64,000 nt of DNA from Vulcanimicrobium alpinum (GTDB lineage Bacteria > Vulcanimicrobiota > Vulcanimicrobiia > Vulcanimicrobiales > Vulcanimicrobiaceae), in assembly GCF_027923555.1 (NCBI RefSeq), contig NZ_AP025523.1:2422484-2486483 (forward strand). Reading direction: 5' to 3'. Position 1 is the first letter of the stretch. Each line of letters starts with the position of its first letter. The notes under the pieces were generated by a model that ran no database searches, was not told where the DNA came from, and was given only the letters and a program-made list of their open reading frames with translations. Shown here in pieces: positions 513-52,434 of this stretch. Made by a program: the position numbers and the translations under genes.

Positions 513-1888
513 CTACCCCGGTGCGCCCAAAGGCACCTGCGATGGGGACGGGGATGCCGACGGAATCGGCGATGCGCTCGGGATCGCCGACGGTGATGGT
601 GAGGGCGCCGGTGCGGTGTGGCCGCAGGCGGTGGGCGGCGGTGCCTGCGGCGGCGTCGACGTGAGGCCGAAGGCGAGCGGGAACGACGACGTGCCGTCAG
701 TCATGTACTCGCCGCGAATCGTGCGGGTCTCGTTCGCCGCGAGCGCGATCTCGTAGACGAGGTAGCGTGCCGACTGCGACGGATCGACGCACGCGACGCT
801 CAGCGGCGGCGCGTCGCCGAGCTGGATCGTCGTCGTCGCCGTCCCGCCGGCCGGCGTTTCGTAGAGAAATACGGACTGCGGCGTTTCGGTCGGGTTGACG
901 ACATGAAGTTCGACGGCGCGCACGACGCCGTAGTCGCCTCCGAGCGGACGCCCCCCGGGACGTAAGTTTTTGAACGCCGGCACGCCGACCAGAAACGGCG
1001 GCGGTTCCGGGCCGCCGACCGTGAACGCGAGCGCGAGCGGCGGGATCAGCGTGAGATCGAATTCACCGCGCCGGCCGTGCGTATCGGACGGCAATTCGGT
1101 CCCGGCGAGCAGCGAGAGCGGATCAAAGCCGCCGCTCGCCGCGACGATCGAGGCGGTCACCGGTCCGCCGTCGAGCACCTGCAGATCGAAGATCGCGGCG
1201 ACGAGGTCGCCGGGATTCATCGCCGCGTCGTCGAGCGGGATCGCGTACGGCGCGCCGGCCGCGAGCGCCGCGATCGCGCTCTCCTGAACGCTGCGCACCT
1301 GCATGTAGCGCAGCGTCGAGACGTGCCCGGTGTAGCCGAAATCGGCCGACGGGCCGGCGCTCGCGCCGAGGATCTGCATGCGCGTCGCGCTGCCCGAAGG
1401 CTGCAGCACGAGATAGAGCCGCCGCGCCGGCGTCTCGGAGACGTGATAGACGTACGTGCGCGCCGGACGCGTGCGATCGATCGCGATCGGACTGCGATAA
1501 AGCACGCCGTCGGCGGCGATCTTTTCCGGGTCGTCGCTGTAAAACAGTACCTGCGGGTCGAGCCGCGGCAGCGCGTCGACCTGCACGTGGACGCCGGTCG
1601 TGCCGCGCACGTCGCTTGCGACGCCGTTGCCCGCGAGCGTGACGTCCGCTTGAGCGTCGGCAACCTCGCCGCCGCGCAACGGCTGCGCGAACGTCACGCC
1701 GCGCACGATCGCCGTCGCGCCGGGCTGCAAGTGTGCGTTCGCAGCGATCGCGTCGTGCACGCGCGCAAGCACGAACACCGGTGAGACGGTGCCCGCGAGT
1801 TCGACCGACACCGCCGCGGGGACGACGCCCGCCGGCGGCGGCGCCGGCGAGGCGCTCGGGCTCGGCTGCGGGATTGCACTCGCGCTAG
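513..1888 (-). pseudogene. C-terminal part of an exported protein gene interrupted by an IS
   Basis: This frame carries about 458 codons without a true start. An internal GTG at 1811 could start a 432-residue product, but the frame stays open upstream through a Pro/Ser-rich linker up to the IS left end at 1889. The matching N-terminus, with a signal peptide, lies on the far side of the insertion (4575-4702). Deleting 1889-4574 and one CTAG duplicate gives a continuous 499-codon frame. The body is rich in beta-strand-like segments and ends in a second Pro/Ser-rich tail (about 35 residues). I do not recognise the family. A secreted or surface beta-rich protein is likely; function unknown. Confidence 0.8.
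1885..1888. repeat. Target-site duplication CTAG, left copy (IS5-1)
   Basis: CTAG directly precedes the IS left end and is repeated at 4575-4578 directly after the right end. A 4-bp YTAR target duplication is characteristic of the IS5 group. Confidence 0.9.
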
Positions 1889-1986
1889 CAGGCCGATGAC
1901 AAATCGGCCGAGTTGATGTTGGCGTGACGGCGTTTTTCGCGTATTATAAGAGCAAGTCTCCTCATACCTTGGTGAGGTTGCGGCCG

Positions 1987-2143
1987 ATGCGGACTCATGA
2001 TGAGCAGCGTGCATCCGTTTGGACGACGTTGCAGCCGGAAGACACCGTGCCCGGCGATCATCCGTTGCGCCCGATGCGCGTGATGGTCAACGAAATTCTG
2101 CGCGAACTCTCGCCGGAGTTTTCCAAGCTCTACTCCCGACGGG
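1987..2143 (+). pseudogene. IS5-family transposase, 5' fragment
   Basis: The first about 52 codons of the DDE transposase, from ATG 1987 (an in-frame GTG at 1924 would add 21 residues). They match residues 1-52 of the intact copy until the sequence SKLYSRR, where the IS256-family element enters. Beyond that the frame runs into foreign DNA and stops at 2287-2289. The remainder of the gene resumes at 3513. Confidence 0.92.
2135..2143. repeat. Target-site duplication of inner IS, left copy
   Basis: CCCGACGGG occurs here and again at 3504-3512, bracketing the inner element. The uninterrupted IS5 copy has this 9-mer once (52682-52690). An 8-9 bp duplication is typical of the IS256 family; the exact boundary is ambiguous by 1 bp. 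Confidence 0.85.
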
Positions 2144-3503
2144 AGTCAAGTCCCAAATCTGCTGTAATTCCGGTTCGTCGATCGCGTAAGTTAGGCTGCT
2201 CGTCTGTCTCGTTTTACGGCGGCCGGCTTGGCCACCGTCGTTGCTTTCCATTCGAAGTATTCGGTCATGTCGAAGTAGGCTCGGCTTAACCATTCGTCGT
2301 TTTGCTCGGAGAGTAACGCGCCGACCATGCGAATCGCTGCGGCGTCGTTTGGGAAAATGCGAATGACTTTCTCCCGGCGACGAATCTCTTCATTGAGCCG
2401 CTCTTGCATGTTGCTCGTGCGCAGTCGCCGACGATATTTCTCCGGCAGCGGCAAGATCGCAAACATGTCTTCGAACGCTCCTTCCAAGCACACGCACGAC
2501 TTCGGCGCTGTTTCTGCGAAGCGGGCCATGAATTCCGCATATCGACGCTCAGCCTCTTTGCGATCAGTTGCGAGAAAGATCAGCCGAGCTGCAGCGGTTA
2601 CGTTTTCGCGTTCTTTCTTGGGCGCGTGATCGAGCAAGTTCTTCATCACGTGGAACTGGCAGCGCTGCCATGTCGCGCCGACGAATTGCTTGGCGATCGC
2701 CTCGCGTAAGCCCGAGTGATTGTCGGAGACGGCAACGTCGACGCCGTGCAAGCCGCGTGCTTTGAGGCCGCGAAAGAACTCGTTCCACGTCGCAAAGCTC
2801 TCCGAATCGCCGATCGAAAGACCAAGGATTTCTCGGTATCCGTCAGCGCGAATGCCGCTCGCGATGAGGAGCGCTTTGCTGACGACGCTCTTGTCGGTGC
2901 GCACCTTCGTAAAGAGCGCGTCAACGATGATGAATGGGTACGCCGCATCAAGCCGACGATTCAAGAATCACCGGCTCGTCAAGGGCCTTCGCGAGGCGAC
3001 TGACCGTCGACTTCGAAAACGACGTCCCACACAGACCTTCGGTTATCCGCGTGACCTTCCGCGTCGAGACGCCGTTGACGACCATCTCCATCAGGCCCAC
3101 GACAAAGGCTTGTTCGCTGCGGCGATAACGCTCAAAGATGTCGGTTGAGAAGCTGCCGTCGCGCGTCTGCGGCACGCGCAGGACCAGCGATCCGACGCGG
3201 GTCGAGAGCTGTCGATCGCGATACCCATTCCGATAGCCCTCCCGTTCTTGACAGCGTTCGTACCGCTCGGCGCCCAGATGATCGCGCATCTGCGCCTCGA
3301 GCACTTGGTTCAAAATCGTTTCGACGAGCTTCCCGAGCGCCGCAGGTTGATCGAGCAACGCTGGAATCGCGTCGCGGGATAGGGTAAGATCGTAATCGGC
3401 CACCGTTCCGGTCCTTTCGATTGAAGTGTTGTCAACGTCAATCTTCGAACCGGAGCGGTGGCTACCCGCCCGCTGAATTTACATCAATTATAGGGACTCT
3501 GCC
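2144..3503 (-). mobile_element. IS256-family (mutator-type) insertion sequence inside IS5 copy 1
   Basis: A 1,360-bp insert that is absent from the second IS5 copy, bracketed by a 9-bp duplication. The ends form an imperfect inverted repeat: the left end begins AGTCAAGTCCCAAATC, and the right end read inward contains AGAGTCCCTATAATTGATG, sharing AGTCCC and further matches. It encodes one mutator-type transposase on the minus strand that is now frameshifted. Insertion into IS5 must postdate arrival of that IS5 copy. Confidence 0.9.
2191..3403 (-). pseudogene. IS256-family transposase, frameshifted
   Basis: Two overlapping frames together make one mutator-family DDE transposase of about 400 residues. 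The 5' frame (3403 to 2948, 151 aa, GTG start) holds the N-terminal dimer/DNA-binding part with REGYRNGYRDR and VGLMEMVVNGVSTRK. The 3' frame (from about 2964 to 2191) holds the catalytic core: Asp in FIIVDALF, Asp in VAVSDNHSG and Glu in NMQERLNEE. At the join (about 2948-2964) the usual V-x-x-FLNRRL region has lost sequence and shifts frame, consistent with a small deletion. Programmed frameshifting is possible but not usual in IS256 elements. Probably inactive. Confidence 0.88.
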
Positions 3504-3512
3504 CCCGACGGG
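3504..3512. repeat. Target-site duplication of inner IS, right copy
   Basis: CCCGACGGG, the second copy of the 9-mer at 2135-2143, marks the right border of the IS256-family insertion. IS5 transposase coding sequence resumes immediately after it. Confidence 0.85.
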
Positions 3513-4438
3513 GCCGGCCATCGATCGCGCCGGAGAAGCTGCTGCGAGCCTTGCTGTTGCAAATGTTCTACTCGATCCGCAGCGAGCCGATGCTGCTGGA
3601 GCAGTTGCGTTACAATTTGCTCTTTCGTTGGTTCGTGGGCTTGAGCATGGACGACAAGATCTGGGACCCCTCGACGTTCAGCAAGAACCGCGATCGGTTC
3701 TTGAATGGCGAAATCTCCGAGCGGTTCTTCGCCGCCGTGGTCGAGCGGGCGCGTGCCGACGAACTGCTCTCGAACGAGCATTTCACCGCCGATGGGACGC
3801 TAATCGAGGCGTGGGCCAGCCACAAGAGCTTTCGGCCCAAGTCGGACGACGAACCGCCGACCTCGAGCGGCGGTCGCAACGAGGGCGTGAACTTTCGTGG
3901 CCGGCCGCGCAGCAACGAGACGCACGTCTCGAGTACCGATCCGGACGCGCGGTTGTACCGCAAGAGCAGCGGCGCGCCGGCGATTCTCGGCTATCTCGGA
4001 CATGCTCTGATGGAGAATCGCAACGGCTTGATCGTCGGCGTGAAGACCACTCGCGCGACCGGGATCGCCGAACGCGAAGCAGCGCTGGAATTGATTCGCG
4101 GGGTCAGCGGAAGCAACCGAATCACGCTCGGTGCCGACAAGGCGTACGATACCAAAGACTTTGTCGAGGCGTTGCGAGCGCTCAACGTGACGCCGCACGT
4201 TGCTCAAAATACGACCCGTCGCCGCAGCGCGATCGACCGCCGAACCGTCCGCCATCCGGGCTACACGGTGAGTCAACGCAGGCGCAAGTTGATCGAGGAG
4301 AGCTTCGGGTGGGGCAAGACGATCGGCCGATTGCGCAAGGTGCATTTCCGCGGGCTTGATCTGGTCGGCGACATTGTGCGCTGGACGGCCGCGGCGTACA
4401 ACTTGATCAGGATACGCAATCTGAGGGCCGCGACATGA
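3513..4438 (+). pseudogene. IS5-family transposase, 3' fragment
   Basis: This resumes the IS5 transposase at RGRPSIAPEKLL and runs to the normal stop, keeping the DUF772 region and the DDE catalytic part. It differs from the intact copy in one residue that I see: codon 3788-3790 is GCC (Ala) instead of GTC (Val), immediately before the first catalytic Asp. Separated from its first 52 codons, it cannot make full-length enzyme; an internal ATG at 3551 could start a 295-residue truncated product. Confidence 0.92.
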
Positions 4439-4574
4439 TGCGAAGTGATGCTGACCCGAGGGGCGTTTTCGAGATGAACCGCTCGGCAACGGGCTTCGAG
4501 GGGTCCGCCGACCTCCCGAAAACCGTGCTGAACGGGCAGTTCGCGAACCAAGCGCCGATTTTTTCAGCACCCTG

Positions 4575-4578
4575 CTAG
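4575..4578. repeat. Target-site duplication CTAG, right copy (IS5-1)
   Basis: Second copy of the CTAG target duplicate. Collapsing the two copies into one restores the reading frame of the interrupted host gene. Confidence 0.9.
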
Positions 4579-4702
4579 GGGCCGGCGAAGGCGACGCGCT
4601 CGGCGCCGGAGACGGCGATGCGGGCGTTTGCGCATTCGCGGGCGCGAGCGAGAGGAGCATTGCAGCACCGACGAAGGCAACCGGCAACCGTGCGTCGATC
4701 AT
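4575..4702 (-). pseudogene. N-terminal part (signal peptide) of the IS-interrupted exported protein
   Basis: ATG at 4702 opens a short frame: basic N-terminus MIDAR, hydrophobic core VAFVGAAMLLSLA, an Ala-x-Ala-like cleavage region near PANAQ at about residue 25, then a Pro/Ser/Ala repeat linker. At the CTAG duplicate the frame runs into the IS. Joined to 1884-513 it forms a 499-codon gene. The apparent longer product of this frame reads through antisense IS sequence and is not meaningful. The gene starts 119 nt from, and divergent to, the DNA ligase gene. Confidence 0.8.
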
Positions 4703-10642: not shown

Positions 10643-11406
10643 CGGTCGGGCCGGAGCCTGCGGCGCCGGATCCCGCCCCGGCGTGCAAGGTGCGTCCCGT
10701 AGAGGGCGCCGCGGAGCGCCGAGAGCGTGCCGAACGGAAAGACGCGATCGGCGCCGGCCGCGACGACGTGCAGGTCGCGGCGGCCGAGGTTCCACGGCGC
10801 CAGCGCCGCTAGACACGCATCGCCGGTGACGTCCAAGCCAGGCGAATACGGCGTGAGCGCGGGGACGACGACGAGCGATGCGGAGCCGAGGAATGCGGGC
10901 GCCGTCGAGCCGCCGCCGAGCTGCAGCGACGGATGCAGGTGACCGATCATCGTGCGCCGCGCTCCCGCATCGGGGCGGTCGCCGTGCAGCAGCGTCCAGC
11001 CGTCGCGCTCGCAACGCTCGACCGTCGCGCCGAGGATCGCGACGCCGCGCGTGCGCCCTTCGTGATTCCCCGCGATCACCGTCACGCGCGCGAAGCCGCG
11101 CAGCGTCGCGAGCGCCGCCGCGACGTGGCGCGCGGCGCCGGGGCTCATCCCCGCACCGTGGATCGCGTCGCCGAGGAAGACGATCTCGCGCGCGTCGTGA
11201 CGCTGCACCGCGATCGCGATCGCGGCGACGATCTCGTCGGTCGACCACAGCGGGAGCGCCGAGCCGCCGCCCATCACGTCTTCGTAGCCCAAGTGCGCGT
11301 CGGCGCAGATCAGGACGCGCGACGTCGCGAGCAGCGCGAAGCCGCCCGGGAGCGCGAGCACGCCGTCGGCGAGCGCGAACGTTTCGGCAGCGGCGGCCGG
11401 ACGCAT
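10639..11406 (-). CDS. pdeM: Ligase-associated DNA damage response endonuclease PdeM
   Basis: 255 residues with a full calcineurin-like metallophosphoesterase motif set: DAH at 36-38, GD at 79-80, GNHE at 113-116, a later HGD, and GHLH at 155-158. In the family that pairs with Lhr-type helicases these residues bind two metals and the protein acts as a nuclease. Its ATG overlaps the TGA of the helicase gene (TGATG), so it is translationally coupled to it, which supports the PdeM assignment over a generic phosphatase. Confidence 0.88.
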   Translation of the reverse strand: MRPAAAAETFALADGVLALPGGFALLATSRVLICADAHLGYEDVMGGGSALPLWSTDEIVAAIAIAVQRHDAREIVFLGDAIHGAGMSPGAARHVAAALATLRGFARVTVIAGNHEGRTRGVAILGATVERCERDGWTLLHGDRPDAGARRTMIGHLHPSLQLGGGSTAPAFLGSASLVVVPALTPYSPGLDVTGDACLAALAPWNLGRRDLHVVAAGADRVFPFGTLSALRGALYGTHLARRGGIRRRRLRPDR

Positions 11407-14090
11407 CACAACAGCCGCATCTGGCCGGGGCGCGCGTCCTCCACCGGCGCCGTCTCCACGCGTTCGCCGAGCAGCGCGAGAACGCGCTCGTGCAGCGCTT
11501 CTACCATGCTCGCGCGATCGTCCATCACCACGCTGTCGCCGAACGATGAGGTGACGATCCCGAAGGTGAACGGCGTCGCCGCCGCCGGATGCAGCACGCG
11601 CGGCTCGCCCTCGATCCCTTCGAGGTAGCGCAGCGCCGCGGGCGCGTCGAGCAGATCGCGCGTCACCGTGCGCAGCGTTTCCCGGACCAGCGGGAAGTCG
11701 CGGTCCGCCTCCCACAGCCGGTCGAAGATCTTCGCCGCGTTCCAGCGCAGCGCGCCGCCGCGGATCGAACGGCCGCCGGCACGCCGCAGCACCAGGAGCC
11801 CGGTGTTCGCGACGTGCCGGAACTGCTGGCGCAGAAGATTGCTCGCGCGCAGGCCGTCGACGAGATCCCGTTCGAAACCGTCGACGCGCAGCAGCGACGG
11901 CCACACCGAGTCGGGGACGCGCTTGCGCGCGGGGAGCGCGACGAGAAAACCGTTGTCGTCGGTCGTCAGGGTCGAATTGACGCGCGCCTCGCGATGCAGG
12001 CGCGCGCCGACCACGCGTGCGAGCGTCTCGTTCACGCGCCGCCCCGCGCAGGTGTGATACACCGCGGTCTGCCGCTGGTCCATCCGGTAGAGTTCGATCA
12101 CCGGGTGCGTGCCGTCGGGGAGCGCCGAGAGGGCGACCTGCTGGGCGACATAGCGCACCACGTGCGCCGCTTCGGCACCGTCGAGCCCGTAACGGCCGCG
12201 CACGTAGGCGAGCGCGCCCTGCGCGCCCCCGGCGGCGAGCGCGTCGGCGACCCCGCGCCGCAGACGCCCGATCTCGTGCGCGAGGATCAGCGGCACGCCC
12301 TTGAGATGCGAACTCCATTGCGGCACCGTCGGCCGTCCGGCATAGGGCTCGACGCGCAGCCCGCGCGGGCCGGACTCCGTCACCCGCAGGGTCCGGCCTT
12401 CCAGCAGAAAGACGTCGCCCGGTGAGAGCGTTGCGGCGAAGCCTTCGCCCAGGCGGCCGATCGCACTGCCGCCGGCGCCGCTCACGGGGACGGTGGATTC
12501 GTCGGGGATCGTGCCGACGTTTTCGAAATACGCGCTCGACGGCTCGCGCCCCAGACCGTAGAGCGCTTCGCCGTCGGTGCCGATGCGCCGCACGTGCGCG
12601 TCGTCGAGACCTGCGCCCCCGCCGGTGAGGTACGCGACGCAGGCGCGCAGATCGTCGTCACGCAGATCGCGGAACGGATACGCCTGCCGTGCCGTCGCGA
12701 GCACGTCGGCGAACGGAACGCGGCGATCCGGGACGCATTGGCCGACGACCCATTGCGCGAGGACGTCGAGCGGTGCCTCGGGGATCGCCACCTCCTCGAT
12801 GATGCCCTCGCGGATGCAGCGGCGGGTCGCAGCCGCTTCGATGATGTCGTCGCGATCCTGCGCGAGGATCGTTCCGGCGGCGACGGCGCCGGGACGATGG
12901 CCGGACCGTCCGACGCGCTGCAGGGTCGGCGTCATTCCACGCGCGCCGCCCATCACGATCACCCGGTCGATGTAGCCGATGTCGACCCCGAGTTCGAGCG
13001 AACTCGAGCACACGACCGTCCGGAGCGTCCCGCTGCGCAAGTCGGCTTCGGTCCGGTGGCGGATATTTTTTTCAAGCGCGCTGTGGTGGACGCCGATCCG
13101 GCGGTCGCGCTTCTCCGTCGTCGCCCGCGGCACGTCGTCCGCGACTTCGATTACGCCGGCCGGTTCGCCGGCCAGCTCCATCTCGTGCGCGACGCGTTCG
13201 GCCTGGCTGCGCACGTTGGTGAACACCAGCGTCGAGCGCACGTCGCGCGTCATCGTGTAGGCCGTGCGCGCGCACGTCGCGAGCGTCGCCATCGCGCCGG
13301 CGAACGGCGCGGTGATGTCGAGCGTGATCTGCCGCAGGCCGCGGCAGTCGACGACGGCGCACTCGCGTCCGGTGCCCGCCAAAAACGACGCAACGCGGTC
13401 GAGCGGCGCGACCGTCGCCGAGAGCCCGACGCGGCGCACCGCGCTCCGGCTGAGCAGGTCGAGCGATTCCAGCAGCAGCGTCAGGTGCGCGCCGCGCTTG
13501 CTGCCGGCGAGCGCGTGGACCTCGTCGACGATGACCGTCTCGACGTGCGAGAGCGTCTTGCGGTAGGAGTCCATCGCGACCATCAGCGCAAGCGATTCCG
13601 GCGTCGTCATCAGGATGTGCGGCGGACGCGCGAGCATCAGCCGCCGCTCTTCCTGCGGCGTGTCGCCGGTGCGCACGCCGGTGCGCACGAAGCGTTCGCG
13701 GACGCGGCCGCGGCGGACGCGCGCGCGTTCCGTGTTGGGCCGCTCGAGCAGTCCCATCTCGCGCAGAGGCCGGCGCACGTTGTGCTCGACGTCGTAGCCG
13801 AGCGCGCGCAGCGGCGAGACGTAGAGACAGTACGTGCGCGCGAGGAGTTCGTCGGCATCGCGCAGGTCGGCGAGCCGCGACATCACGGGCAAGAACGCCG
13901 AGAGCGTCTTCCCGGTCCCGGTCGGCGAACAGATGAGCGCGTGACGTCCGGTCGCGGCGAGCGGGAGCGCCTGAGCCTGCGGCGGCGTCGGCTCGCGCAG
14001 ACGTTCGTCGCACCACGCGGCGATATCCGGGTGCAGTGATCGAAAGGGATCGTGCGCGTCGACCTCCGCACGCGGGCTTTGCGGTCTCAC
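11406..14090 (-). CDS. lhr: Lhr-type ATP-dependent DNA helicase
   Basis: 894 residues from GTG 14090. Superfamily 2 motifs: Q region PPQAQ at 36-40, Walker A SPTGTGKT at 55-62, DEVH box at 189-192, SAT motif in GLSATVAP, then the C-terminal motor with QRVGRSGHRPG (motif VI), winged helix and Lhr-specific core. Length and the coupled downstream pdeM match the ligase-associated DNA damage response helicase family. The frame is open upstream to 14261, but that extension is Arg-rich and overlaps the divergent regulator, so the shorter start is preferred. Acts in DNA repair, presumably with PdeM and a ligase. Confidence 0.93.
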   Translation of the reverse strand: MRPQSPRAEVDAHDPFRSLHPDIAAWCDERLREPTPPQAQALPLAATGRHALICSPTGTGKTLSAFLPVMSRLADLRDADELLARTYCLYVSPLRALGYDVEHNVRRPLREMGLLERPNTERARVRRGRVRERFVRTGVRTGDTPQEERRLMLARPPHILMTTPESLALMVAMDSYRKTLSHVETVIVDEVHALAGSKRGAHLTLLLESLDLLSRSAVRRVGLSATVAPLDRVASFLAGTGRECAVVDCRGLRQITLDITAPFAGAMATLATCARTAYTMTRDVRSTLVFTNVRSQAERVAHEMELAGEPAGVIEVADDVPRATTEKRDRRIGVHHSALEKNIRHRTEADLRSGTLRTVVCSSSLELGVDIGYIDRVIVMGGARGMTPTLQRVGRSGHRPGAVAAGTILAQDRDDIIEAAATRRCIREGIIEEVAIPEAPLDVLAQWVVGQCVPDRRVPFADVLATARQAYPFRDLRDDDLRACVAYLTGGGAGLDDAHVRRIGTDGEALYGLGREPSSAYFENVGTIPDESTVPVSGAGGSAIGRLGEGFAATLSPGDVFLLEGRTLRVTESGPRGLRVEPYAGRPTVPQWSSHLKGVPLILAHEIGRLRRGVADALAAGGAQGALAYVRGRYGLDGAEAAHVVRYVAQQVALSALPDGTHPVIELYRMDQRQTAVYHTCAGRRVNETLARVVGARLHREARVNSTLTTDDNGFLVALPARKRVPDSVWPSLLRVDGFERDLVDGLRASNLLRQQFRHVANTGLLVLRRAGGRSIRGGALRWNAAKIFDRLWEADRDFPLVRETLRTVTRDLLDAPAALRYLEGIEGEPRVLHPAAATPFTFGIVTSSFGDSVVMDDRASMVEALHERVLALLGERVETAPVEDARPGQMRLL

Positions 14091-14220: not shown

Positions 14221-15300
14221 GTGTCCGCCTCGCTGGCCGCCATGTTGCGTAAGAGCACCACTCTTTACCAGGAGCGGTGGGTTGCGCGTTCCGAGACGGA
14301 ATACGCGACGCCGGCCCGGGCCGGGATCGTCGAAGAACACATCGGCTATTGGGAAGCGATCGCGCGCGCCGTCGAGACGCAGGACTTCGAAGAGCTGATG
14401 AGCTTCGCGCGCACCGCTGGGCGCATGCAGGCGCGCGACGGACGCGACCTGGCCGACGCGGTGCGCCGCACGATCGCCGCCACCAACCTCATCGAGCTCG
14501 CGCTGCTCGAAGTCAACGACGGCGACGTCCCGGCGATCGACATCGTCAACGAGATCGGCGACGTGCGCGGGCTCATCGCGATGGCCGTCGCCGAGGGATA
14601 CAAGGCCGAGGTCGCGGAACGCGACGCGCCGGCCGAGGCGCGCGAGCGGCTGCGCGCCGCGATGCAGCGCCGCCGCGATCGTGCCGCGACGACGACGCTG
14701 CTCGCCGGCTCCGAGATCGCGCCGCTGTACGAAGGCGGGATGCGGCTGCACTTCGTCGAGAGCGGGAAGCTGCGGCTCTACAACCTGCTTCCGAACGGGC
14801 GCACCATCACGCTCTCGATTCTCAGCGAGAACGACGTGTTTTTGCAGTGGCGCGCCGAGTCGACCTCGCTCTCGTGCCTGTGCGCCGAGGCGATGCACGA
14901 CTCCACCGTGCTCACGGTGGACGGTGACGCGCTCGCCGAGATCGTCGCCCAGCAGCCCGTGGCGGCGATCGACGTAATCACGCAGTTCGCCCAGCGCCTC
15001 ACCGAGTCGCAAGTCCTCATCGAAGACCTCCTCAACAACTCGGTCAACATCCGGCTGTACCGCACCCTGCTCCAGCTCGCTCAGCAGTTCGGGCGGCTGG
15101 ACGCCGGCGCGACCCTCATCGACGTTCCGCTGACCCACCAGCGGCTCGCCGATATGATCGGGTCGAACCGTGTCACCGTCACCCGCAAGCTTCACGAACT
15201 GCAGGAGCGCGGAATCGTCGAGGGCCGCCGCAACGCGACCCTGGCGGTACGCCGGATGGACCGGCTCGAAGCGCTCGCGACCGGCGCCGAGACGGACTGA
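14221..15300 (+). CDS. Crp/Fnr-type regulator with an N-terminal RsbR-like helical domain
   Basis: 359 residues (GTG start; ATG 14242 is an alternative). Residues about 15-135 form an all-helical acidic domain (IVEEHIGYWEAIARAVETQD; RDLADAVRRTIAATNLIE) resembling the non-haem globin-like N-domain of RsbR stressosome proteins. Residues about 155-275 are a cyclic-nucleotide-binding-like beta roll (LHFVESGKLRLYNLLPNGR; VFLQWRAES). About 285-350 is the Crp helix-turn-helix (LTHQRLADMIGSNRVTVTRKL). No Fe-S cysteine cluster of FNR type is evident. It sits just before bchM-acsF and diverges from lhr, so control of tetrapyrrole or stress genes is possible but unproven. Confidence 0.82.
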   Translation: MSASLAAMLRKSTTLYQERWVARSETEYATPARAGIVEEHIGYWEAIARAVETQDFEELMSFARTAGRMQARDGRDLADAVRRTIAATNLIELALLEVNDGDVPAIDIVNEIGDVRGLIAMAVAEGYKAEVAERDAPAEARERLRAAMQRRRDRAATTTLLAGSEIAPLYEGGMRLHFVESGKLRLYNLLPNGRTITLSILSENDVFLQWRAESTSLSCLCAEAMHDSTVLTVDGDALAEIVAQQPVAAIDVITQFAQRLTESQVLIEDLLNNSVNIRLYRTLLQLAQQFGRLDAGATLIDVPLTHQRLADMIGSNRVTVTRKLHELQERGIVEGRRNATLAVRRMDRLEALATGAETD

Positions 15301-15344: not shown

Positions 15345-15539
15345 ATGCCCTATTTCGTCCGCGTCACCGCGATCGTCGCGGTCGCCCTGGTCGCCCTGAT
15401 CCTCATCGGCTTTCTACTCAAGATCGTGCTGTTCGCGGCGCTGGTCGCCGCGCTGATCGTCGGCGGCTTGGCGATCCGCAACGCCGTTCTGCGCCGCCGG
15501 TCCCGCGGCGGGGTGATTACACTCACGGCGCGACGCTAG
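15345..15539 (+). CDS. Small single-pass membrane protein
   Basis: 64 residues preceded by a good ribosome site GGAGG 7 nt before ATG. One long hydrophobic run (residues about 6-45, VTAIVAVALVALILIGFLL and following) could be one or two helices; then an Arg-rich cytosolic tail. No family recognised. It lies in the same direction as the regulator (45 nt downstream) and bchM. Confidence 0.65.
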   Translation: MPYFVRVTAIVAVALVALILIGFLLKIVLFAALVAALIVGGLAIRNAVLRRRSRGGVITLTARR

Positions 15540-15606
15540 CCCGCCTCGTAGCATCGGGTCAAGCTGCTGTAGCACGTCCGCCGTGGCGCGGACGGGAGGG
15601 CCCCCG

Positions 15607-16353
15607 ATGCAGAGTGATGTCCGTTCCGCGGCCGATCCGCGCACCCACGCGCCGGCGTTCGCGCCGCACCGTCCCTCGGAGATCGGGGAGCGGGTCCGCA
15701 AGTACTTCGAAACGTCGGGCTTCTCGCGCTGGACCGCGATCTACGGCACCGGGGACATCCCGCCGATCTGGAAGATCGTGCGCGACGGCCACCAGCGCGT
15801 GATCGATCACGTGCTGGAGTGGACCGAGCCCGATCGTCATCACACCGCGCTCGACGCGGGCTGCGGGACCGGCAACCTCGCGATTCAGCTGGCGAACCGC
15901 GGCTACGAAGTCGACGCGTTCGACGTCTCGGCGCCGATGATCCACTTCGCCAAGTACATCAACAGCGGGAAGACCAAGGGGATCCCGCCGAGCTTCCACG
16001 TCGGCGACATCGGCTCGGTGACGGCGGAGCCGCGCAGCTACGATCTGGTCTGCTGTCTGGACGTGCTGTTCCACTACCCGCTCGAGGAAGTGGATCGGAT
16101 GCTTTCGAGCCTCGCCGATCTGAGCGCGGCAAAGCTGATCGGGACGTTCGCTCAGCGCACGCCGCTCAACGACTTCTGGATGCGTGTCGGCCAGCGCCTC
16201 CACGCCAAGAACCGCATGACGAAGCTGTTCATGTTCAGTCAGTCGGAGATCGACGCGGTGCTCAAGCGGGCCGGCTTCAAGGTCGTGCGGACGAAGCGGA
16301 TCAAGTACTTCTTCTATGATTCGACCGTGTTCGAAGCCGTGCGGACCGCGTAG
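15607..16353 (+). CDS. bchM: Magnesium-protoporphyrin IX methyltransferase
   Basis: Transfers a methyl group from S-adenosylmethionine to Mg-protoporphyrin IX, the step before ring E closure in (bacterio)chlorophyll synthesis. 248 residues from ATG 15607, chosen because GGAGGG lies 6 nt upstream (a longer frame starts at 15583). Residues 30-72 carry the family signature VRKYFETSGFSRWTAIYG and DGHQRVIDHVLEW. SAM motif I is LDAGCGTGN at 82-90. The C-terminal VRTKRIKYFFYDSTVFEAV is also typical. It is 9 nt from acsF, the next pathway enzyme, which makes the assignment firm. Confidence 0.93.
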   Translation: MQSDVRSAADPRTHAPAFAPHRPSEIGERVRKYFETSGFSRWTAIYGTGDIPPIWKIVRDGHQRVIDHVLEWTEPDRHHTALDAGCGTGNLAIQLANRGYEVDAFDVSAPMIHFAKYINSGKTKGIPPSFHVGDIGSVTAEPRSYDLVCCLDVLFHYPLEEVDRMLSSLADLSAAKLIGTFAQRTPLNDFWMRVGQRLHAKNRMTKLFMFSQSEIDAVLKRAGFKVVRTKRIKYFFYDSTVFEAVRTA

Positions 16354-16362
16354 CGCCGCAGG

Positions 16363-17511
16363 ATGAGCGTCATCGCCGGGCCGGTCGATTCGGCCTGGGT
16401 CAAACAGCCGAAGGTCAAGGATGCGGCGTCGCCGCAGATGCTCGCGCCGCGGCTGTACCGGACGGACATCGAGCAGCTCAACGCGCTCGACGTCTCCGCG
16501 TTCCGCGCGGAGTTCACGGCGCTGCGCGAAGATTTCGAAGCCGACCACAACCGCGCGCACTTCAAGTGGGACGACGACGCCCGCAACCTCGACTATCGCC
16601 CGGTGTGGGAGAATTTCTACGAGTTCCTCCACCGCAGCGCGTTCGGCGAGTTCTCGGGCTGTCTGCTCTACAGCGACGTCTACCGGCGGATCGACGACCC
16701 CGATGTCTCGGCGATCTACAAATGCATGGCGCGCGATGAGGGCCGGCACGCGTCGTTTCTGAACTGGGTGATGCGCGAGATGGGGCGCCGCTTCGACCTC
16801 GCGGCGCTCCCGCAGATCGAAAAGCTGCAGTTCCTCGCCCCGCAGTGGATCTTCATCACCACGTACCTCTCCGAAGCGATCGGCTTCTACCGCTATCAGA
16901 ACATCTCCGATCACCTGCGCGCGCGCAGCGAATACCGCTTCCACCCGCTCTTCCGCTACTTCCACGAGTGGTGCAAGGACGAGCGCCGGCACTCGCGCTT
17001 CTTCGCGCTGATGATCCGCACGCAGCCTCAGCTCTACCGCGGTGCGTGGCGCGCATTTCTCACCAAGGTCTTCACCCTCGCGGTGTACGTGACGATGTAC
17101 CTGCGCGACCAGGAGTCGTCGATCTACGGAACGCTCGGGATCGACTGGGAGAAGTACGATCTGAAGGTGATCGACGAGACCGACGTAGCGGCGGCCGGCG
17201 TGTGGGGGATCCGCATCCGCACGAAGTCGCGCTGGTTCGCCGCGCGCTTGCGCGCGATGCGCGAGAACAACCGCGCCAACAAACGCGGCCGCGCGCGCGC
17301 CCACGGCATCCGCAAGCCGTATGAGGTCGCGCTGCGCTACGTGCGCTTCGCCGGCAACATCCTGCAGCTCGCGCTCCTCGCTGCGCAGCCGCCGGACCGC
17401 GTCACCCCGCACCCGCGCGAACGCTGGCTCGAAGTCGCCGCCGATCCCGCCGACACCGCCGTCTTCGCCCTGAACGTCCCGCCCGCCACGCTGCCCGCCA
17501 TCGCACGCTGA
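16363..17511 (+). CDS. acsF: Aerobic Mg-protoporphyrin IX monomethyl ester (oxidative) cyclase
   Basis: Diiron oxygenase that uses O2 to form the isocyclic ring E of chlorophylls. 382 residues, the usual length. Candidate iron ligands follow the ferritin-like pattern: E96 (GEFSG), E126 with H129 (ARDEGRH), E171 (YLSEAIG), E207 with H210 (CKDERRH). Family stretches include GCLLYSDVYRRI and FTLAVYVTMYLRDQE. The C-terminus is longer than cyanobacterial homologues and ends in an Ala/Pro-rich tail. Encoded 9 nt after bchM. The O2-dependent enzyme implies oxic growth; the anaerobic BchE is not in the window. Confidence 0.93.
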   Translation: MSVIAGPVDSAWVKQPKVKDAASPQMLAPRLYRTDIEQLNALDVSAFRAEFTALREDFEADHNRAHFKWDDDARNLDYRPVWENFYEFLHRSAFGEFSGCLLYSDVYRRIDDPDVSAIYKCMARDEGRHASFLNWVMREMGRRFDLAALPQIEKLQFLAPQWIFITTYLSEAIGFYRYQNISDHLRARSEYRFHPLFRYFHEWCKDERRHSRFFALMIRTQPQLYRGAWRAFLTKVFTLAVYVTMYLRDQESSIYGTLGIDWEKYDLKVIDETDVAAAGVWGIRIRTKSRWFAARLRAMRENNRANKRGRARAHGIRKPYEVALRYVRFAGNILQLALLAAQPPDRVTPHPRERWLEVAADPADTAVFALNVPPATLPAIAR

Positions 17512-17753: not shown

Positions 17754-20700
17754 ATGGCGTTTCGGGAAATCGGGCCTGCGCTGGCCGGCGGCCGCGTGAC
17801 CTCGGTGGTCGGCGTTGCGGACGATCCGAAGCTGTACTACCTCGGCTCGGCCGGCGGCGGCGTCTGGAAGACCGTCAACGGAGGCGCGACATGGTCGCCG
17901 GTCTTCGACAAGCAGAACGTCGCGTCGATCGGTGCGGTCGCGGTCGATCCCAAGAACCACGACGTCGTGTGGGTCGGGACCGGTGAGACGAACCCGCGCA
18001 ACGACGTCACCTGGGGCGACGGGATCTACCGCTCGGGCGACGGCGGAAAAACCTGGACGCATCTCGGCCTCGAGGCGACCAAGTTCATCGCGTCGGTCGC
18101 GATCGACCCGCGCGATTCGAACACCGTCGTCGCCGGTGCGCTCGGCGACGCGTTTGCCGACTCGCCCGAACGCGGCGTGTATCGCACCACCGACGGCGGC
18201 AAGAGCTGGACGAAGACGCTCTATGTCGGCCCGCGTAGCGGCGTCTCCGAACTCGCTGTCGACCCGAAGCGTCCCGACATCATGTATGCGGGGATCTGGC
18301 ATTTCCAGCGCAAGCCGTGGACGTTCGAATCGGGCGGTGACGACGACGGGATCTGGAAATCGAGCGACGGCGGCAAGACGTGGAAGCGTCTGCAGGGACA
18401 CGGCCTCCCCGAGGGGATGACGGGCCGCATCGGCCTCGCCGTCGCGCCGTCGAATCCCGACCGCGTCTACGCGCTGATCGAATCGAAGACGCCCGGGATC
18501 CTCTGGCGCTCCGACGACGCCGGCACGACCTGGAAATTGATGACGACCAACACGCTCGTCAATCAGCGCTTCTTCTACTTCTCGCACGTGCGCGTCGATC
18601 CGCACGACGCAGACCACGTCTACGGCGTCTCCGAGAAACTCTCCGAGTCGAAGGACGGCGGGAAGACCTTCAAGGCGATTGCCGAGAGCCTGCACAGCGA
18701 CCACCACGATCTGTGGATCGCGCCGAACGATTCGAAGCGGATGATCGCCGGCGGCGACGGCGGCTACGCGATCACGCTCGACGGCGGTGCGGCGTGGTCG
18801 TTCTCGCGCAACCTCGCGATCGGACAGATCTATCACGTCGGATACGACGACCAGAACCCGTATCGCGTGTGCGTCGGGCTGCAGGACAACAATGGTTTCT
18901 GCGGACCGTCGAACGCTCTGCGCGGCGACGGCATCCCCGACGAAGCGTGGGAGCGCATCATCGGAGGCGACGGTCAGTGGGCGTGGCCCGATCCACGCGA
19001 TCCGAACTTGGTGTGGACCGATTCGCAGAACGGCCGCCTGACGATCTACGATCGCACCACGAAGCGCACGACGCTGGTGCAGCCGTACCTCGCGACCGGC
19101 GCGCAGCACTTTGCGCCCGGCAGCCTCAAGTACCGCTTCAACTGGGATTCCCCAATCGCGTTCGATCCGTTCGAGCGGTCGCGCACGTATTTCGGCGGCA
19201 ACGTCGTGTTCGAATCGAACGACCGCGGCCGTACCTGGCGGCCGATCTCCGGCGATCTCACCCGCAACGACAAATCCCATCAGATCGCCGCGGGCGGACC
19301 GCTCGCGCTCGACAACACCGGCGCCGAGTCGACGTCGACGATCCTCGACATCGAGCCCGCGACGACGACGCGCGGCACGATCTGGGTCGGCACCGATGAC
19401 GGGCTCGTGCAGTTGACGCGCGACGGCGGCGCGCACTGGACGAACGTCACGCCGCCCGGCGTCCCGATCGACGGGCGCGCCGAGATGGTTGCGCCGTCGC
19501 CGCTCACGCCGGGCGTCGCGTACGTCACGATCGACCGCCATTACCTCGGCGATCACGCGCCGTACGTCTTCGCGACGAGGGATTGGGGCGCGCACTGGAC
19601 GCCGATCGCCGCGGGCCTGCCGCAGCAGGAAGCGCGCGCGATCCGTCCCGACACGCGCAACCCGCACCTGGTCTACCTCGGGCTCGAGAACTCGTTCTGG
19701 CTTTCGTACGACGACGGCGCGCACTGGACGAAACCGTCGCTCGGACTCCCGACGACCGCGAGCTACGACATCCGCGTGCAGCCGCACTGGAACGATCTCA
19801 TCGTTGCGACGCACGGGCGCGGGCTCTACATCCTCGACGATCTCACGCCGCTGCAGCAGCTGCCGCAGGCCGAGGCGGCGGGCGCGATGCTGTTCGCGCC
19901 GCGCACGGCGTACCGCTACACGCTGCACTCCGACGACGAGGGACTCTACACGCGGTACGCGGGGAAGAATCCGCCGAACGGCGCTTCGATCGCGTTCTAT
20001 CTGAAGACACCGGGTGCGAACCCGCCCGCGATCGAGATCCTCGATGCGAGCGGCAAGGCAATCCGTCACCTTCGCGGGACGACGCGCGTCAACGGGCACG
20101 ATGTCCCCATCGTCACCAACTTTGCCGGGATCAACCGCATCACGTGGGACCTGCGCGAAGACGGCCCGGTGCGGTGGGACGGCGCCGCGAGAGAGGAGTA
20201 CAAGGGCCCGCGCGCCGGTGTCGCCGTCGTCCCCGGCCGCTACGCGGTGCGGATCGCGATCGGCGGCGCGACGTTGACCCAGCCGCTCACCGTCGCGGCC
20301 GATCCGCGCGCGACGCAGACCGCGGCCGACTACCGCGCGGCCTACGCGTTCGCGAAGAGCCACATGACCGCGTTCTCCGCGCTCGACGCCGCGCTCAACC
20401 GCCTCGACGCGTACGCGGCGTCGGCAGCGGCCCGCGCGAAGGACGCACCGGCGTTGGCGACGCAGCTCGGCGCCGTCCGCACGCGCGCGCTCGAGCTGCG
20501 CGGGCGGCTCACCGCCGATTTCACCAACGACGAGGACTCGATCGGGCATCCGGACCGCATCCGGGAAGAGCTCGAAGGGCTCACCGGCTTCGGCTTCGGG
20601 AGCGGCGGGGTACCCAGCGCGGCGGTACGCGAATACGCCGGCCGCGTCGACGCGGCGCTCGCGGCCGCGATGCGCGACGTCGCGGCGTTCGAACGCGACG

Positions 20701-20819
20701 ACGTCGCGAGCGCCGACGCCGCGCTGCGCGCCGCAGGCAAGCCGGCGCTCGCGACGAGCGGCGCGAAGCGCACCGACGTCGTCGGCGGCGAAGCGACGGG
20801 CGACGACGCCGACGACTGA
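17754..20819 (+). CDS. Exported BNR/sortilin-like beta-propeller protein
   Basis: 1,021 residues from the first ATG, but the gene probably begins in the upstream leader. It has about ten Asp-box/BNR repeats of the S/D-x-G-x-T-W type (NGGATW, GDGGKTW, TDGGKSW, SDGGKTW, DDAGTTW, KDGGKTF, DRGRTW, RDGGAHW, DWGAHW, DDGAHW), forming one or two propellers across residues about 10-700. A helical C-terminal domain follows (about 850-980). Relatives in Acidobacteria and similar phyla are annotated as glycosyl hydrolases or sortilin-like proteins without known substrate. GVAVVPGRYAVRIAIGG is a beta-sandwich linker segment. Enzymatic function cannot be assigned. Confidence 0.85.
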   Translation: MAFREIGPALAGGRVTSVVGVADDPKLYYLGSAGGGVWKTVNGGATWSPVFDKQNVASIGAVAVDPKNHDVVWVGTGETNPRNDVTWGDGIYRSGDGGKTWTHLGLEATKFIASVAIDPRDSNTVVAGALGDAFADSPERGVYRTTDGGKSWTKTLYVGPRSGVSELAVDPKRPDIMYAGIWHFQRKPWTFESGGDDDGIWKSSDGGKTWKRLQGHGLPEGMTGRIGLAVAPSNPDRVYALIESKTPGILWRSDDAGTTWKLMTTNTLVNQRFFYFSHVRVDPHDADHVYGVSEKLSESKDGGKTFKAIAESLHSDHHDLWIAPNDSKRMIAGGDGGYAITLDGGAAWSFSRNLAIGQIYHVGYDDQNPYRVCVGLQDNNGFCGPSNALRGDGIPDEAWERIIGGDGQWAWPDPRDPNLVWTDSQNGRLTIYDRTTKRTTLVQPYLATGAQHFAPGSLKYRFNWDSPIAFDPFERSRTYFGGNVVFESNDRGRTWRPISGDLTRNDKSHQIAAGGPLALDNTGAESTSTILDIEPATTTRGTIWVGTDDGLVQLTRDGGAHWTNVTPPGVPIDGRAEMVAPSPLTPGVAYVTIDRHYLGDHAPYVFATRDWGAHWTPIAAGLPQQEARAIRPDTRNPHLVYLGLENSFWLSYDDGAHWTKPSLGLPTTASYDIRVQPHWNDLIVATHGRGLYILDDLTPLQQLPQAEAAGAMLFAPRTAYRYTLHSDDEGLYTRYAGKNPPNGASIAFYLKTPGANPPAIEILDASGKAIRHLRGTTRVNGHDVPIVTNFAGINRITWDLREDGPVRWDGAAREEYKGPRAGVAVVPGRYAVRIAIGGATLTQPLTVAADPRATQTAADYRAAYAFAKSHMTAFSALDAALNRLDAYAASAAARAKDAPALATQLGAVRTRALELRGRLTADFTNDEDSIGHPDRIREELEGLTGFGFGSGGVPSAAVREYAGRVDAALAAAMRDVAAFERDDVASADAALRAAGKPALATSGAKRTDVVGGEATGDDADD

Positions 20820-23390: not shown

Positions 23391-23460
23391 CGCAGCCGCC
23401 GTCGTGCCCGCAGGGCGGCGCATCGAGAAACCCCGCGAGACGCCGAGGAGAGCATCGCCC

Positions 23461-24345
23461 ATGTCGTTCATGAATCCCGTCACCGTCATCCCCAAGCACG
23501 TTCCGGGCGACGAGCTGCGCACGTTCGGCACGCTGGAGTCGTACGAAGAGTACATCGAGCATCAATACCGCGACACCAAGGCGCTGCTTGAGAAATATCG
23601 CGAGCACGCAACGCACGACCCCCAACTGAGCGCCGAGTACCGGCACGCGATGCGCCCGATCATGGTCACCACCTGCTGGGGCGAAGCGCAGACGACGGCG
23701 CAGGTCGCGCAGATCATCACCAAGACGAACCGCCCGTCGATCCAGTACTTCTACGCCACCCACGCGCTCGACGAAGTCCGCCACACGCAAGTCGAATGGC
23801 GCCGCATCCGCGACCTCGACCTCGCCGACTCCCTCGACGTCCCCTATGAGCAGACCGAACTCTTCCGCTTCGTCAACGGCCTGCCGACGTTCGTCGAGAT
23901 CGTCTACGGCCAGGTCTGCACGCTCGAGGCCTACTCGGCGCACGTCCTCTTCAACTCGATCATCGATCTGGCGAAGAAGCACGGCGACCTCGCGACCGCG
24001 GCGACCTACGAGTACGTGATGCACGATGAAGTCCGGCACATCGGGACCGGACTGCGCGTGGTGCGTGAGGCGATCGAGACGAGCCCCGATCCGGAAGAAG
24101 CGCAGTTCCGCATCCTCGACCTGGAGGAGAAACTGCTGCCGATCACGATCCGCAAGCTGGGCCGCGACTCGGCGATCGCGAACTCGCTCTACGAGTCGGG
24201 CTTGATCTTGGACAAACGCACCTTCGAATTCGACGGCTTCCGCCAGTACCTGGTCTTCCGCTCGAAGATCCCGAACCTGCCGCCGATGCGCTACCGCGGT
24301 CCCGACGGCTGGACCCCCGAGGACGCGCTCGCCGGCGTCGCATGA
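23461..24345 (+). CDS. Uncharacterised ferritin-like diiron protein
   Basis: 294 residues from ATG 23461. The spacing of acidic and His residues is that of a carboxylate-bridged diiron oxygenase: E75 (WGEAQ), E105/H108 (LDEVRH), E156 (TLEAYS), E190/H193 (HDEVRH), i.e. two ExxH pairs and two lone Glu. DEVRH boxes also occur in bacterial multicomponent monooxygenases, PaaA/BoxB-like and AurF-like enzymes, but no reductase or coupling protein lies nearby. It overlaps the extradiol dioxygenase gene by 4 nt (ATGA) and follows the aldehyde dehydrogenase, so an oxygenation step in the same aromatic pathway is plausible. Specific function unknown. Confidence 0.8.
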   Translation: MSFMNPVTVIPKHVPGDELRTFGTLESYEEYIEHQYRDTKALLEKYREHATHDPQLSAEYRHAMRPIMVTTCWGEAQTTAQVAQIITKTNRPSIQYFYATHALDEVRHTQVEWRRIRDLDLADSLDVPYEQTELFRFVNGLPTFVEIVYGQVCTLEAYSAHVLFNSIIDLAKKHGDLATAATYEYVMHDEVRHIGTGLRVVREAIETSPDPEEAQFRILDLEEKLLPITIRKLGRDSAIANSLYESGLILDKRTFEFDGFRQYLVFRSKIPNLPPMRYRGPDGWTPEDALAGVA

Positions 24346-25220
24346 GCGCGGCGGGGGCGATCGTCGCGGGACTCTTCTCCACCCACGTCCCGCGCCTGAT
24401 GATCCTCGATCCCGACGCGCGCCGCGCATACATGGGACGCACCGTGACCACGTTCTACGACGCGCTCGATCGGATACGGCACGAGCGCATCGCAGCGCTC
24501 GACTTCGACACTTTCGTCGTCGTCGACACGCATTGGCACACGACGCTCGAGTTCGTGATCAACGCGCACGCGCGCCACGACGGCGTCTACACCTCCGACG
24601 AGATTCCGTGGATGATCCACGAGTACGCCTACGACTATCCGGGCGACCCGGAACTCGCGGCGCTGATCGCTGCGGAGGCGCAGGCGCGCGGCGTGCCGGT
24701 GCAGGCGGCCGCGCATCGCGGCCTGCCGATCCACTACGGCACGCTCAACCCGATGCACTATTACAATCCCGGCCCGGCGAAGCACCGCGTCCTGCCGGTC
24801 TCGGTCTGTGACACCGCGGAGGTCGCACCGAACCTGCGCTTCGGCGAAGCGCTCGCCGCCGCGGTCGCGAAGAGCGGACGGCGCGTCCTGCTCGTCGCCT
24901 CCGGCGGGATGTCGCACCGCTTCTGGCCGCTCGCCGTGATTCGCGAGCGCGCGAGCGCCGATCCGGCGGACATCAGCGACCCGGCGCTGCGCGCGTTCGA
25001 CGAGCGCATCATGGGCTGGTGGCGCGACGGGGATCACGCCGCAGTCCTCTCCGTCGCCGACGAGTTTCGCCGGACGTGTTCGCCGGAGGGACGTTTCGCG
25101 CACTACCTCGTCCTCGCCGGCGCACACGGCGGCGCCGCGTGGCGGGCGCGCGGCGAACAGTTCGGCCGCTACGAAGCCGCGATCGGGACCGGCCAAGCCA
25201 ACTTCTGGTTCGCGGGCTGA
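24342..25220 (+). CDS. Class III (LigB-type) extradiol ring-cleavage dioxygenase
   Basis: 292 residues. Iron-binding and catalytic histidines of the LigB fold are visible: H15 (LFSTHVPRL), H64 and H66 (VVVDTHWHTT), and GGMSHRFWPL later. This resembles homoprotocatechuate (3,4-dihydroxyphenylacetate) 2,3-dioxygenase. It opens a catechol ring next to a hydroxyl, giving a semialdehyde that the upstream aldehyde dehydrogenase could oxidise. Start codon overlaps the diiron gene stop, so it is the last gene of a four-gene coupled operon. Confidence 0.88.
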   Translation: MSAAGAIVAGLFSTHVPRLMILDPDARRAYMGRTVTTFYDALDRIRHERIAALDFDTFVVVDTHWHTTLEFVINAHARHDGVYTSDEIPWMIHEYAYDYPGDPELAALIAAEAQARGVPVQAAAHRGLPIHYGTLNPMHYYNPGPAKHRVLPVSVCDTAEVAPNLRFGEALAAAVAKSGRRVLLVASGGMSHRFWPLAVIRERASADPADISDPALRAFDERIMGWWRDGDHAAVLSVADEFRRTCSPEGRFAHYLVLAGAHGGAAWRARGEQFGRYEAAIGTGQANFWFAG

Positions 25221-30803: not shown

Positions 30804-31439
30804 ATGCGCTCCTTGCAACGCGTTGCCGTTTTGGCGGCAACGATCGTGCTGCTGGGCGAAGCTCCGACGCCCACGGCTCCCTCAGAAGAGGCCGCACGCG
30901 TCGTTGCGCTGAGCAGCAACCGCTCGTCCGCCGTGCAGTCGTACACGTCGCGGCTGCACGTCGACGTCGCGCTGTGTTCGTTCCCGTTCTTGAAGTTTCA
31001 CTTAAACGGCACGATGGCGTTCAAACGGCCCAACCTCTACTCGGTGCACTTCGAGCACGTCCCGTGGTTCGGCAAAGGCTTTGAAGATCTCAAAGCCGAC
31101 CCGCTCGTGCCGATGACGTGGCCGGAACACTATGACATCACCAGCCTCAAGCGCGAAGGCGGCCGCGCGCTGTTCGAAATGCGCGACAAGGTGGACGGCC
31201 ACATCAAGGGCGTGCACGCGGAGCTCGACAACGATGGGCTGCGCCGCATCACGTGGATGTACGTCAACGGCGGCAACATCGACGTGCAGGTGACGCCGTC
31301 GACCGTCGACGGCGTCCCGGTGCCGTCGGTGGAAGACGCCGACATCAAGCTCCCGACGTATCACGTGACGGCGCACGCGACGTTCACCGACTACAAGATC
31401 GTCACCGACTCCGAAGCGAACGGTGAACGCGCGCGCTGA
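30804..31439 (+). CDS. Exported LolA-like (lipid/lipoprotein carrier fold) protein
   Basis: 211 residues from ATG 30804 (30792 is an alternative GTG-type start). Signal peptide at about 1-20 (LQRVAVLAATIVLLGEA). The mature part alternates strands, with a YTSRLHVDVALCSFPFLKF opening and a KRPNLYSVHFEHVP segment, as in LolA/LolB-like and lipid-binding periplasmic proteins. It overlaps hpnK by 17 nt, so it may belong to the hopanoid operon and bind or move a lipid. This is inference from fold character and position. Confidence 0.6.
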   Translation: MRSLQRVAVLAATIVLLGEAPTPTAPSEEAARVVALSSNRSSAVQSYTSRLHVDVALCSFPFLKFHLNGTMAFKRPNLYSVHFEHVPWFGKGFEDLKADPLVPMTWPEHYDITSLKREGGRALFEMRDKVDGHIKGVHAELDNDGLRRITWMYVNGGNIDVQVTPSTVDGVPVPSVEDADIKLPTYHVTAHATFTDYKIVTDSEANGERAR

Positions 31440-33460: not shown

Positions 33461-33463
33461 CCG

Positions 33464-34087: not shown

Positions 34088-34101
34088 ACGCCGCGACCAC
34101 C

Positions 34102-38110: not shown

Positions 38111-38215
38111 CGCGGGGACGCCTTTCCTGCCTGCATTCGTGATGGGCGCCGCGTGCCACCATTCCGCGAAGGCGCGTGTAACAAGCGAGTAAGGTTGAGG
38201 GAGGGCGGTTCCGCT

Positions 38216-39289: not shown

Positions 39290-39302
39290 CTCCAGGCCGC
39301 GC

Positions 39303-52423: not shown

Positions 52424-52430
52424 ATGCGCG

Positions 52431-52434
52431 TTAG
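52431..52434. repeat. Target-site duplication TTAG, left copy (IS5-2)
   Basis: TTAG flanks the IS left end and recurs at 53753-53756. It fits the YTAR rule shown by CTAG at copy 1. Confidence 0.9.

Follow-up and report, generated by a model that had tools for sequence, protein, structure and literature searches.

Repression of pigment genes in phototrophs is established for CrtJ/PpsR. Direct action of Crp/Fnr-family factors on photosynthesis operons has been described for FnrL and CrpK of Rhodobacter sphaeroides (PMC4263372), and the cyanobacterial factor NtcA binds GTAN8TAC at sites centred near -41.5 (PMC3898017). According to the main text of its description (Yabe et al. 2022, PMC9758169), Vulcanimicrobium alpinum WC8-2 is a cultured aerobic anoxygenic phototroph which makes bacteriochlorophyll (BChl) a and has a chromosome of 3,508,363 bp; light stimulated its growth and raised the bchM transcript 2.9-fold. 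The same text names bchM-acsF as a sub-cluster, as well as bchNBGP, bchFCXYZ and pufBALMC, and also notes the BchI/BchD fusion and the dependence of ring closure on O2 and AcsF. The bchM-acsF pair has thus already been published and is nothing unusual in this organism. The words Crp, Fnr, regulator and transcription factor are absent from that main text, and the regulators Crp1 and Crp2, the small protein orf64 and the promoter boxes considered below are not described there.

The window analysed here is a 64-kb stretch, bases 2422484-2486483 of the single 3,508,363-base contig of V. alpinum (genome code G000). The features around bchM-acsF, numbered from the start of the window, are:

11406..14045, minus strand: lhr-type DEAD helicase gene (lhr), divergent from crp1; the frame is open to 14261 and homologues start near 14045
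14221..15300, plus strand: crp1, Crp/Fnr-family regulator with an extra N-terminal domain of about 130 residues modelled as a globin fold
15345..15539, plus strand: orf64, encoding a small hydrophobic protein predicted to be in the membrane, placed between crp1 and bchM; judged by sequence and position
15512..15527, no strand assigned: predicted bch-box operator of bchM-acsF, GGTGATTACACTCACG (GTGA-N6-TCAC)
15549..15554, plus strand: TAGCAT, predicted -10 element at class II spacing, 22 nt downstream of the operator core
15607..16353, plus strand: bchM, Mg-protoporphyrin IX O-methyltransferase (TIGR02021, PF07109, 4qdj)
16363..17511, plus strand: acsF, predicted oxygen-dependent di-iron Mg-protoporphyrin IX monomethyl ester cyclase (TIGR02029, rubrerythrin fold PF02915, conserved motifs)
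17754..20819, plus strand: Sortilin/BNR-repeat protein, right flank; it adjoins lhr directly in congeners G123 and G124

An earlier note on this DNA had described bchM and acsF as intact, consecutive genes with their motifs, at coordinates running exactly from the start of bchM to the stop of acsF, and this description was borne out. BchM passed the cut-off of the curated equivalog TIGR02021 (175 bits, E 1.4e-51; cut-off 158.9) and that of Mg-por_mtran_C, PF07109 (77.1 bits versus 27), and the solved Mg-protoporphyrin O-methyltransferase structure 4qdj matched it over the whole domain. The bchM frame covers 15583-16353, open from a GTG at 15583 (256 aa if counted from that GTG); the start is likely the ATG at 15607, with GGGAGG just 5' of it. 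AcsF, with 382 aa, scored 274.1 bits against the curated equivalog TIGR02029 (cut-off 192.5), and the di-iron motifs DEGRH and DERRH were both present and kept in relatives. The two genes are separated by 9 bp. Elsewhere in the window lie a hopanoid cluster at 31423-40304 (HpnK, HpnI, HpnB, squalene-hopene cyclase and HpnA) and, at 41354-42334, a polyprenyl/GGPP-synthase-like gene which could be an isoprenoid source for either pathway. A distant phenol/methane hydroxylase-type protein was seen beside an HpaD-like dioxygenase at 23404-25220, possibly for the breakdown of aromatic compounds.

The rest of the pathway was found in the same chromosome. The earlier note had suggested a genome search for bchHID, bchLNB and pufLM, and all of them were present; the main loci, in chromosome coordinates, are:

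2514794-2516599: fused bchID, a single open frame for the BchI and BchD parts
2518001-2521822: bchH (Mg-chelatase), from the whole-genome search
from 2529577: bchL, from the whole-genome search
2570684-2572332: pufL/pufM (reaction centre, RC), from the whole-genome search

The bchNBGP, bchZYX, bchF, pufBALMC, crtB and crtP-like genes were found as well, all outside the window. The statement that the window holds no other bch, puf or crt gene stood for the families tested: whole-genome searches for RC, bchH, bchD, bchL and bchE placed none there, and bchNBGP, bchXYZ, bchF, puf and crtB/crtP were located elsewhere. As its genome combines pufL and pufM with a BChl a pathway, V. alpinum is a type II anoxygenic phototroph, and the prediction of an aerobic phototrophic host agreed with the presence of pufLM, bchH, bchID, bchL and bchNB and with the published BChl a. 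Matches to bchH, bchNBXYZ, bchF and puf fell under some NCBI cut-offs because the lineage is divergent and deep-branching. No BchE exceeded its cut-off in the genome; the best candidate for such an alternative cyclase was a radical-SAM match of 119.7 bits, far under 481, and was ruled out. Since BchE over the cut-off is missing from the genome, ring closure should, judging from the gene content, depend on O2 and AcsF.

The bchM-acsF pair is followed, 75-140 kb downstream, by the RC, Mg-chelatase, bchL, bchNBGP, bchXYZ/F, puf and crt genes. The photosynthesis genes are thus loosely clustered over about 140 kb, or 4% of the chromosome, with bchM-acsF as the outlying end. The pathway genes had been called dispersed, which was correct in that they form separate operons; they are not scattered at random, however, but make up this loose cluster of about 140 kb and share one promoter element. 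Similarly, a non-photosynthetic neighbourhood was a fitting term as far as the tested pigment and RC families are concerned, but not for 14221-15300, 15345-15539 and the operator at 15512-15527, which belong to the phototrophy system.

Among 149 genomes of the phylum, Photo_RC was found in 6 and AcsF in 5, and every AcsF holder has the RC; ten congeners of V. alpinum have neither. Since bchM adjoins acsF in all five acsF-bearing genomes, the pairing is not a matter of chance. G095, the remaining genome with an RC, is a draft in which the contig ends within crp1, beside lhr. The order lhr (divergent), crp1, small hydrophobic ORF, bchM, acsF was the same in V. alpinum, G118, G090 and G061. In G060, roughly 4 kb separate crp1, which stands beside crtB, from bchM, and bchID and bchH come after acsF; in G090, bchID comes 2 kb after acsF. 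Because bchID, in G060 together with bchH, is near acsF in these two genomes, the V. alpinum pair seems to have become separated from bchID-bchH, which now lies 75 kb away. In the draft of G060, crp1 and bchM on contig 127 (L048) read as split by frameshifts.

The lhr flank was conserved even in the non-phototrophic congeners. In G123 and G124, lhr lies directly beside the Sortilin-like gene, which represents the empty site for the crp1-orf64-bchM-acsF block. The left flank, a NUDIX gene and lhr, is common to V. alpinum, G118 and G061. V. alpinum, G118, G061 and G090 were placed congruently in the lhr, crp1+bchM+acsF and bchXYZ/F+puf+crp2 trees. G060 was not; its position differs among the gene blocks, suggesting a mosaic origin or an assembly error. 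The flanks and the trees fit an old block lost in the congeners, or a transfer together with the flanks. Copies of one DDE-type insertion sequence (IS; DUF772/DDE_Tnp_1) were observed at 1881-4590 and 52427-53768 of the window and near chromosome position 2523086, and the first of them is interrupted by another insert, which carries a fragment of a Mutator-family transposase (2191-2964), so that one element is nested in another. Dispersal of the pair by the two IS copies in the window (1.9 and 52 kb) was considered and rejected: the NUDIX gene/lhr flank adjoins the block in other genera too, and hence these elements did not carry the block there. An acsF carrier named 'Rhodospirillales' (L012) was likewise dismissed as a transfer to Proteobacteria. 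Its 27,293-base contig is identical to contig 133 of G090, a genome placed in V. alpinum's own family, and the name is therefore probably a mislabel.

Crp1 contains the cNMP-binding-like barrel and the Crp-type winged helix of the Crp/Fnr family (60.1 bits against PF13545; 28.2 versus 27.5 against PF00027), and its fold matched CooA, CRP and NtcA; the whole-protein model, of only moderate quality (pLDDT 71.5), served for the Crp core alone. Its first 165 residues were found in 6/6 RC-positive genomes and 0/143 RC-negative genomes at E<1e-40, and two RC-negative genomes matched the N-terminal domain only at E of about 5e-4 and 1e-3. At least eight Crp-family matches occur in the V. alpinum genome. 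In the ten congeners, only distant Crp paralogues were found, and these match the C-terminal half of Crp1. When the N-terminal domain was modelled alone from a six-sequence alignment (pLDDT 83.8), the model matched globin-coupled sensors, the RsbR globin domain and phycobiliproteins with Z of 11-12.8 (best Foldseek E 0.04). Since nearly all of the proteins in this list have the globin fold, that fold was accepted for the modelled domain, with the reservation that helical folds score high. H40 is the only invariant histidine in the six sequences and, by helix order in the model, would lie in the E-like rather than the F-like helix; no histidine is seen near the expected proximal position, which makes haem binding by Crp1 doubtful. 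Against RsbRD_N (PF14361, gathering threshold 24.3), two homologues scored 17.8 and 17.7 bits and the Crp1 of the window gave no match. The recognition helix of Crp1, RVTVTR, is as in the NtcA alignment. Downstream of crp1, orf64 matched no Pfam family; equivalents of 60-67 residues occupy the corresponding position in G118, G090 and G061, and the protein could assist the membrane-bound cyclase or pigment assembly.

In a 177-kb region, five GTGA-N6-TCAC sites were found, and all of them lie directly before bchM, bchH, bchL, bchN and bchF; the chance expectation is about 1.6 anywhere in 177 kb. Four of the five boxes are perfect GGTGA-N6-TCACC, and the bchM box differs in the last base. The scans covered 2.04 of the 3.51 Mb of the genome, and the rest of the scanned sequence (1.86 Mb) contained 18 loose sites and one strict GGTGA-N6-TCACC, apparently inside a gene. 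Conservation of the box extends across genera, with 5/5 phototroph genomes carrying it before bchM and 6/6 before bchF; it also precedes bchH in G090 and the split bchX/C operon in G118. Between genomes the halves are kept, while the six-base spacers and the flanks have diverged. The bchM box lies inside the end of orf64 in V. alpinum and G118, and after orf64 in G090 and G061. It is very likely, on these sequence patterns, that the bch operons share a Crp-type operator.

At class II promoters of CRP, a site centred at -41.5 leaves just 22-23 nt to the -10 element. A TAnnnT started 22-23 nt past the core in 15/16 sites (background 0.0012 per position). This count is descriptive, the rule having been noticed and counted on the same sites; what is independent of them is the lack of such spacing elsewhere in the genome. 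The bchN box has no TAnnnT at the expected place. The spacing to the predicted TAnnnT in the 15 sites would fit an operator about 41.5 nt before the transcription start. Core, spacing and TAnnnT together occurred four times in 2.04 Mb, at the bchM, bchH, bchL and bchF promoters; 16 Mb of order-1 random sequence contained no such combination. A weight matrix built from the relatives only ranked the bchF site 1st, bchL 2nd, bchN ninth and bchH tenth in the 2.04 Mb, with the bchM site outside the best twenty. The FNR-type box TTGAT-N4-ATCAA was not found in the 177-kb region, and four CrtJ/PpsR-type TGT-N12-ACA sites were present there, none at a bch or puf promoter.

A second palindrome, GTAG-N6-CTAC, was found before pufB in V. 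alpinum, G060, G061, G090 and G118, with TAnnnT at the same distance as for the bch boxes in the four genomes first checked. The gene crp2 directly follows pufC in 6/6 RC-positive genomes, and its product has the helix RETVSR, as in CRP/GlxR-type factors. Another GTAG-N6-CTAC with class II spacing was seen at 2573709 (minus strand) of the chromosome, before pufB; it stands in front of an ORF of 150 aa and a small membrane ORF (MWSHFFIPSWQVLF...), which lie upstream of pufB and may be more photosystem genes. A class II-like GTAG site at 658001 precedes no recognised phototrophy gene and was taken as chance.

In the mechanism that we propose, BchM would methylate Mg-protoporphyrin IX and AcsF, as predicted from its sequence, would close the fifth ring with O2. 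The GGTGA-N6-TCACC palindrome before each of the separated bch operons would be centred near -41.5, a position from which we infer that a Crp-family activator turns these operons on together. The activation would be of class II, with the activator bound next to RNA polymerase in place of a -35 element. Crp2, which is encoded by the last gene of the puf operon and whose RETVSR helix fits GTGA by the CRP code, most likely binds the bch boxes. Crp1, with its NtcA-like RVTVTR helix and globin-fold N-terminal domain, would bind the GTAG-N6-CTAC box of pufBALMC-crp2. A signal would thus act through Crp1 on puf and crp2, and through Crp2 on the bch operons. This pairing follows from the two helices and the NtcA site GTAN8TAC, and we consider it evenly balanced; crp1 adjoins a bch box and not the puf box, and Crp1 could bind the bch box instead. 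As a tentative proposal with somewhat less than an even chance of being right, the phototrophic Eremiobacterota would have a circuit of their own, unlike PpsR/CrtJ or FnrL, in which Crp1 senses a light- or oxygen-related signal and switches on puf and crp2, Crp2 activates the dispersed bch operons via a common class II box, and the whole is gained or lost with phototrophy.

The earlier note had left room for bchM-acsF as a relic or as genes of a new, non-photosynthetic function, which the 64-kb window, having no RC, chelatase or reductase gene, might by itself suggest. The whole-genome searches refuted this alternative: Mg-chelatase and RC genes, whose absence would have spoken for it, are both present together with all tested bch steps, the strain makes BChl a, and acsF is accompanied by the RC throughout the phylum, so that it has practically no chance of being correct. 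The bch genes are almost certainly functional, and we have good confidence in the explanation as a whole, with bchM-acsF as a functional operon for BChl a synthesis in the aerobic phototroph V. alpinum and the bch operons under a common Crp-family activator. That the palindromes are functionless and conserved only through close kinship of the loci is highly improbable. All carriers belong to one family, but the halves persist while spacers and flanks differ, the bchM box is within a coding sequence in some genomes and outside it in others, and the same box precedes unrelated operons within one genome.

A palindrome by itself is compatible with either sign of regulation, and pigment genes of phototrophs are often repressed, so the bch boxes might be repressor operators, functionally like those of CrtJ/PpsR in purple bacteria. 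This is unlikely: a -10 element at a fixed 22-23 nt, as seen in 15/16 sites, is the layout of an activator, and TGT-N12-ACA is absent from these promoters. Activation of the bch operons is, from this promoter layout, considerably more probable than repression. It is quite possible, though on the whole somewhat improbable, that a single regulator (Crp1 alone, Crp2 alone or another Crp paralogue) binds both boxes with no two-step cascade. The GT-N10-AC frame and the spacing are common to both boxes, candidates abound among the eight or more Crp-family matches, and crp1 stands beside a bch box; on the other hand, the two boxes are distinct and separately conserved, and the same genomes encode two dedicated regulators with differing recognition helices.

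If true, the regulon would be the first candidate photosynthesis control system, within the literature searched, for the third phylum that has a Type II reaction centre of its own. It would explain how dispersed operons could stay in step without a compact cluster, it bears on the reported light response of bchM, and it adds a Crp regulator with a predicted globin-fold sensor domain. Loss versus transfer of phototrophy in the phylum could also be approached through the crp1-orf64-bchM-acsF block, whose fixed chromosomal site is empty in congeners. No earlier report of this regulon was found in the literature searched, with subscription papers, preprints and supplements outside its scope.

Compared with known systems, the locus shares with the WC8-2 description (PMC9758169) the organism, the sub-clusters and BChl a; the candidate regulon and its unusually built regulator are apparently new, no published description having been found. 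With FnrL and CrpK of R. sphaeroides it shares Crp/Fnr-family factors at photosynthesis operons, here predicted. In contrast to that system, the V. alpinum box is CRP-like GTGA-N6-TCAC, with no TTGAT-N4-ATCAA in 177 kb, and Crp1 has an extra globin-fold domain. The helix RVTVTR is common to NtcA and Crp1, and the puf box fits GTAN8TAC; however, NtcA has no N-terminal domain and controls nitrogen genes, and Crp1 resembles it only in the Crp core. The model of Crp1 residues 1-132 superposes on the globin-coupled sensor 9dsf (Z 12.8, rmsd 2.3, 127 residues) and on the non-haem globin domain of RsbR, 2bnl (Z 12.7, rmsd 2.7, 130 residues). Unlike these proteins, Crp1 is predicted to have its globin-fold domain joined to a Crp/Fnr DNA-binding module.
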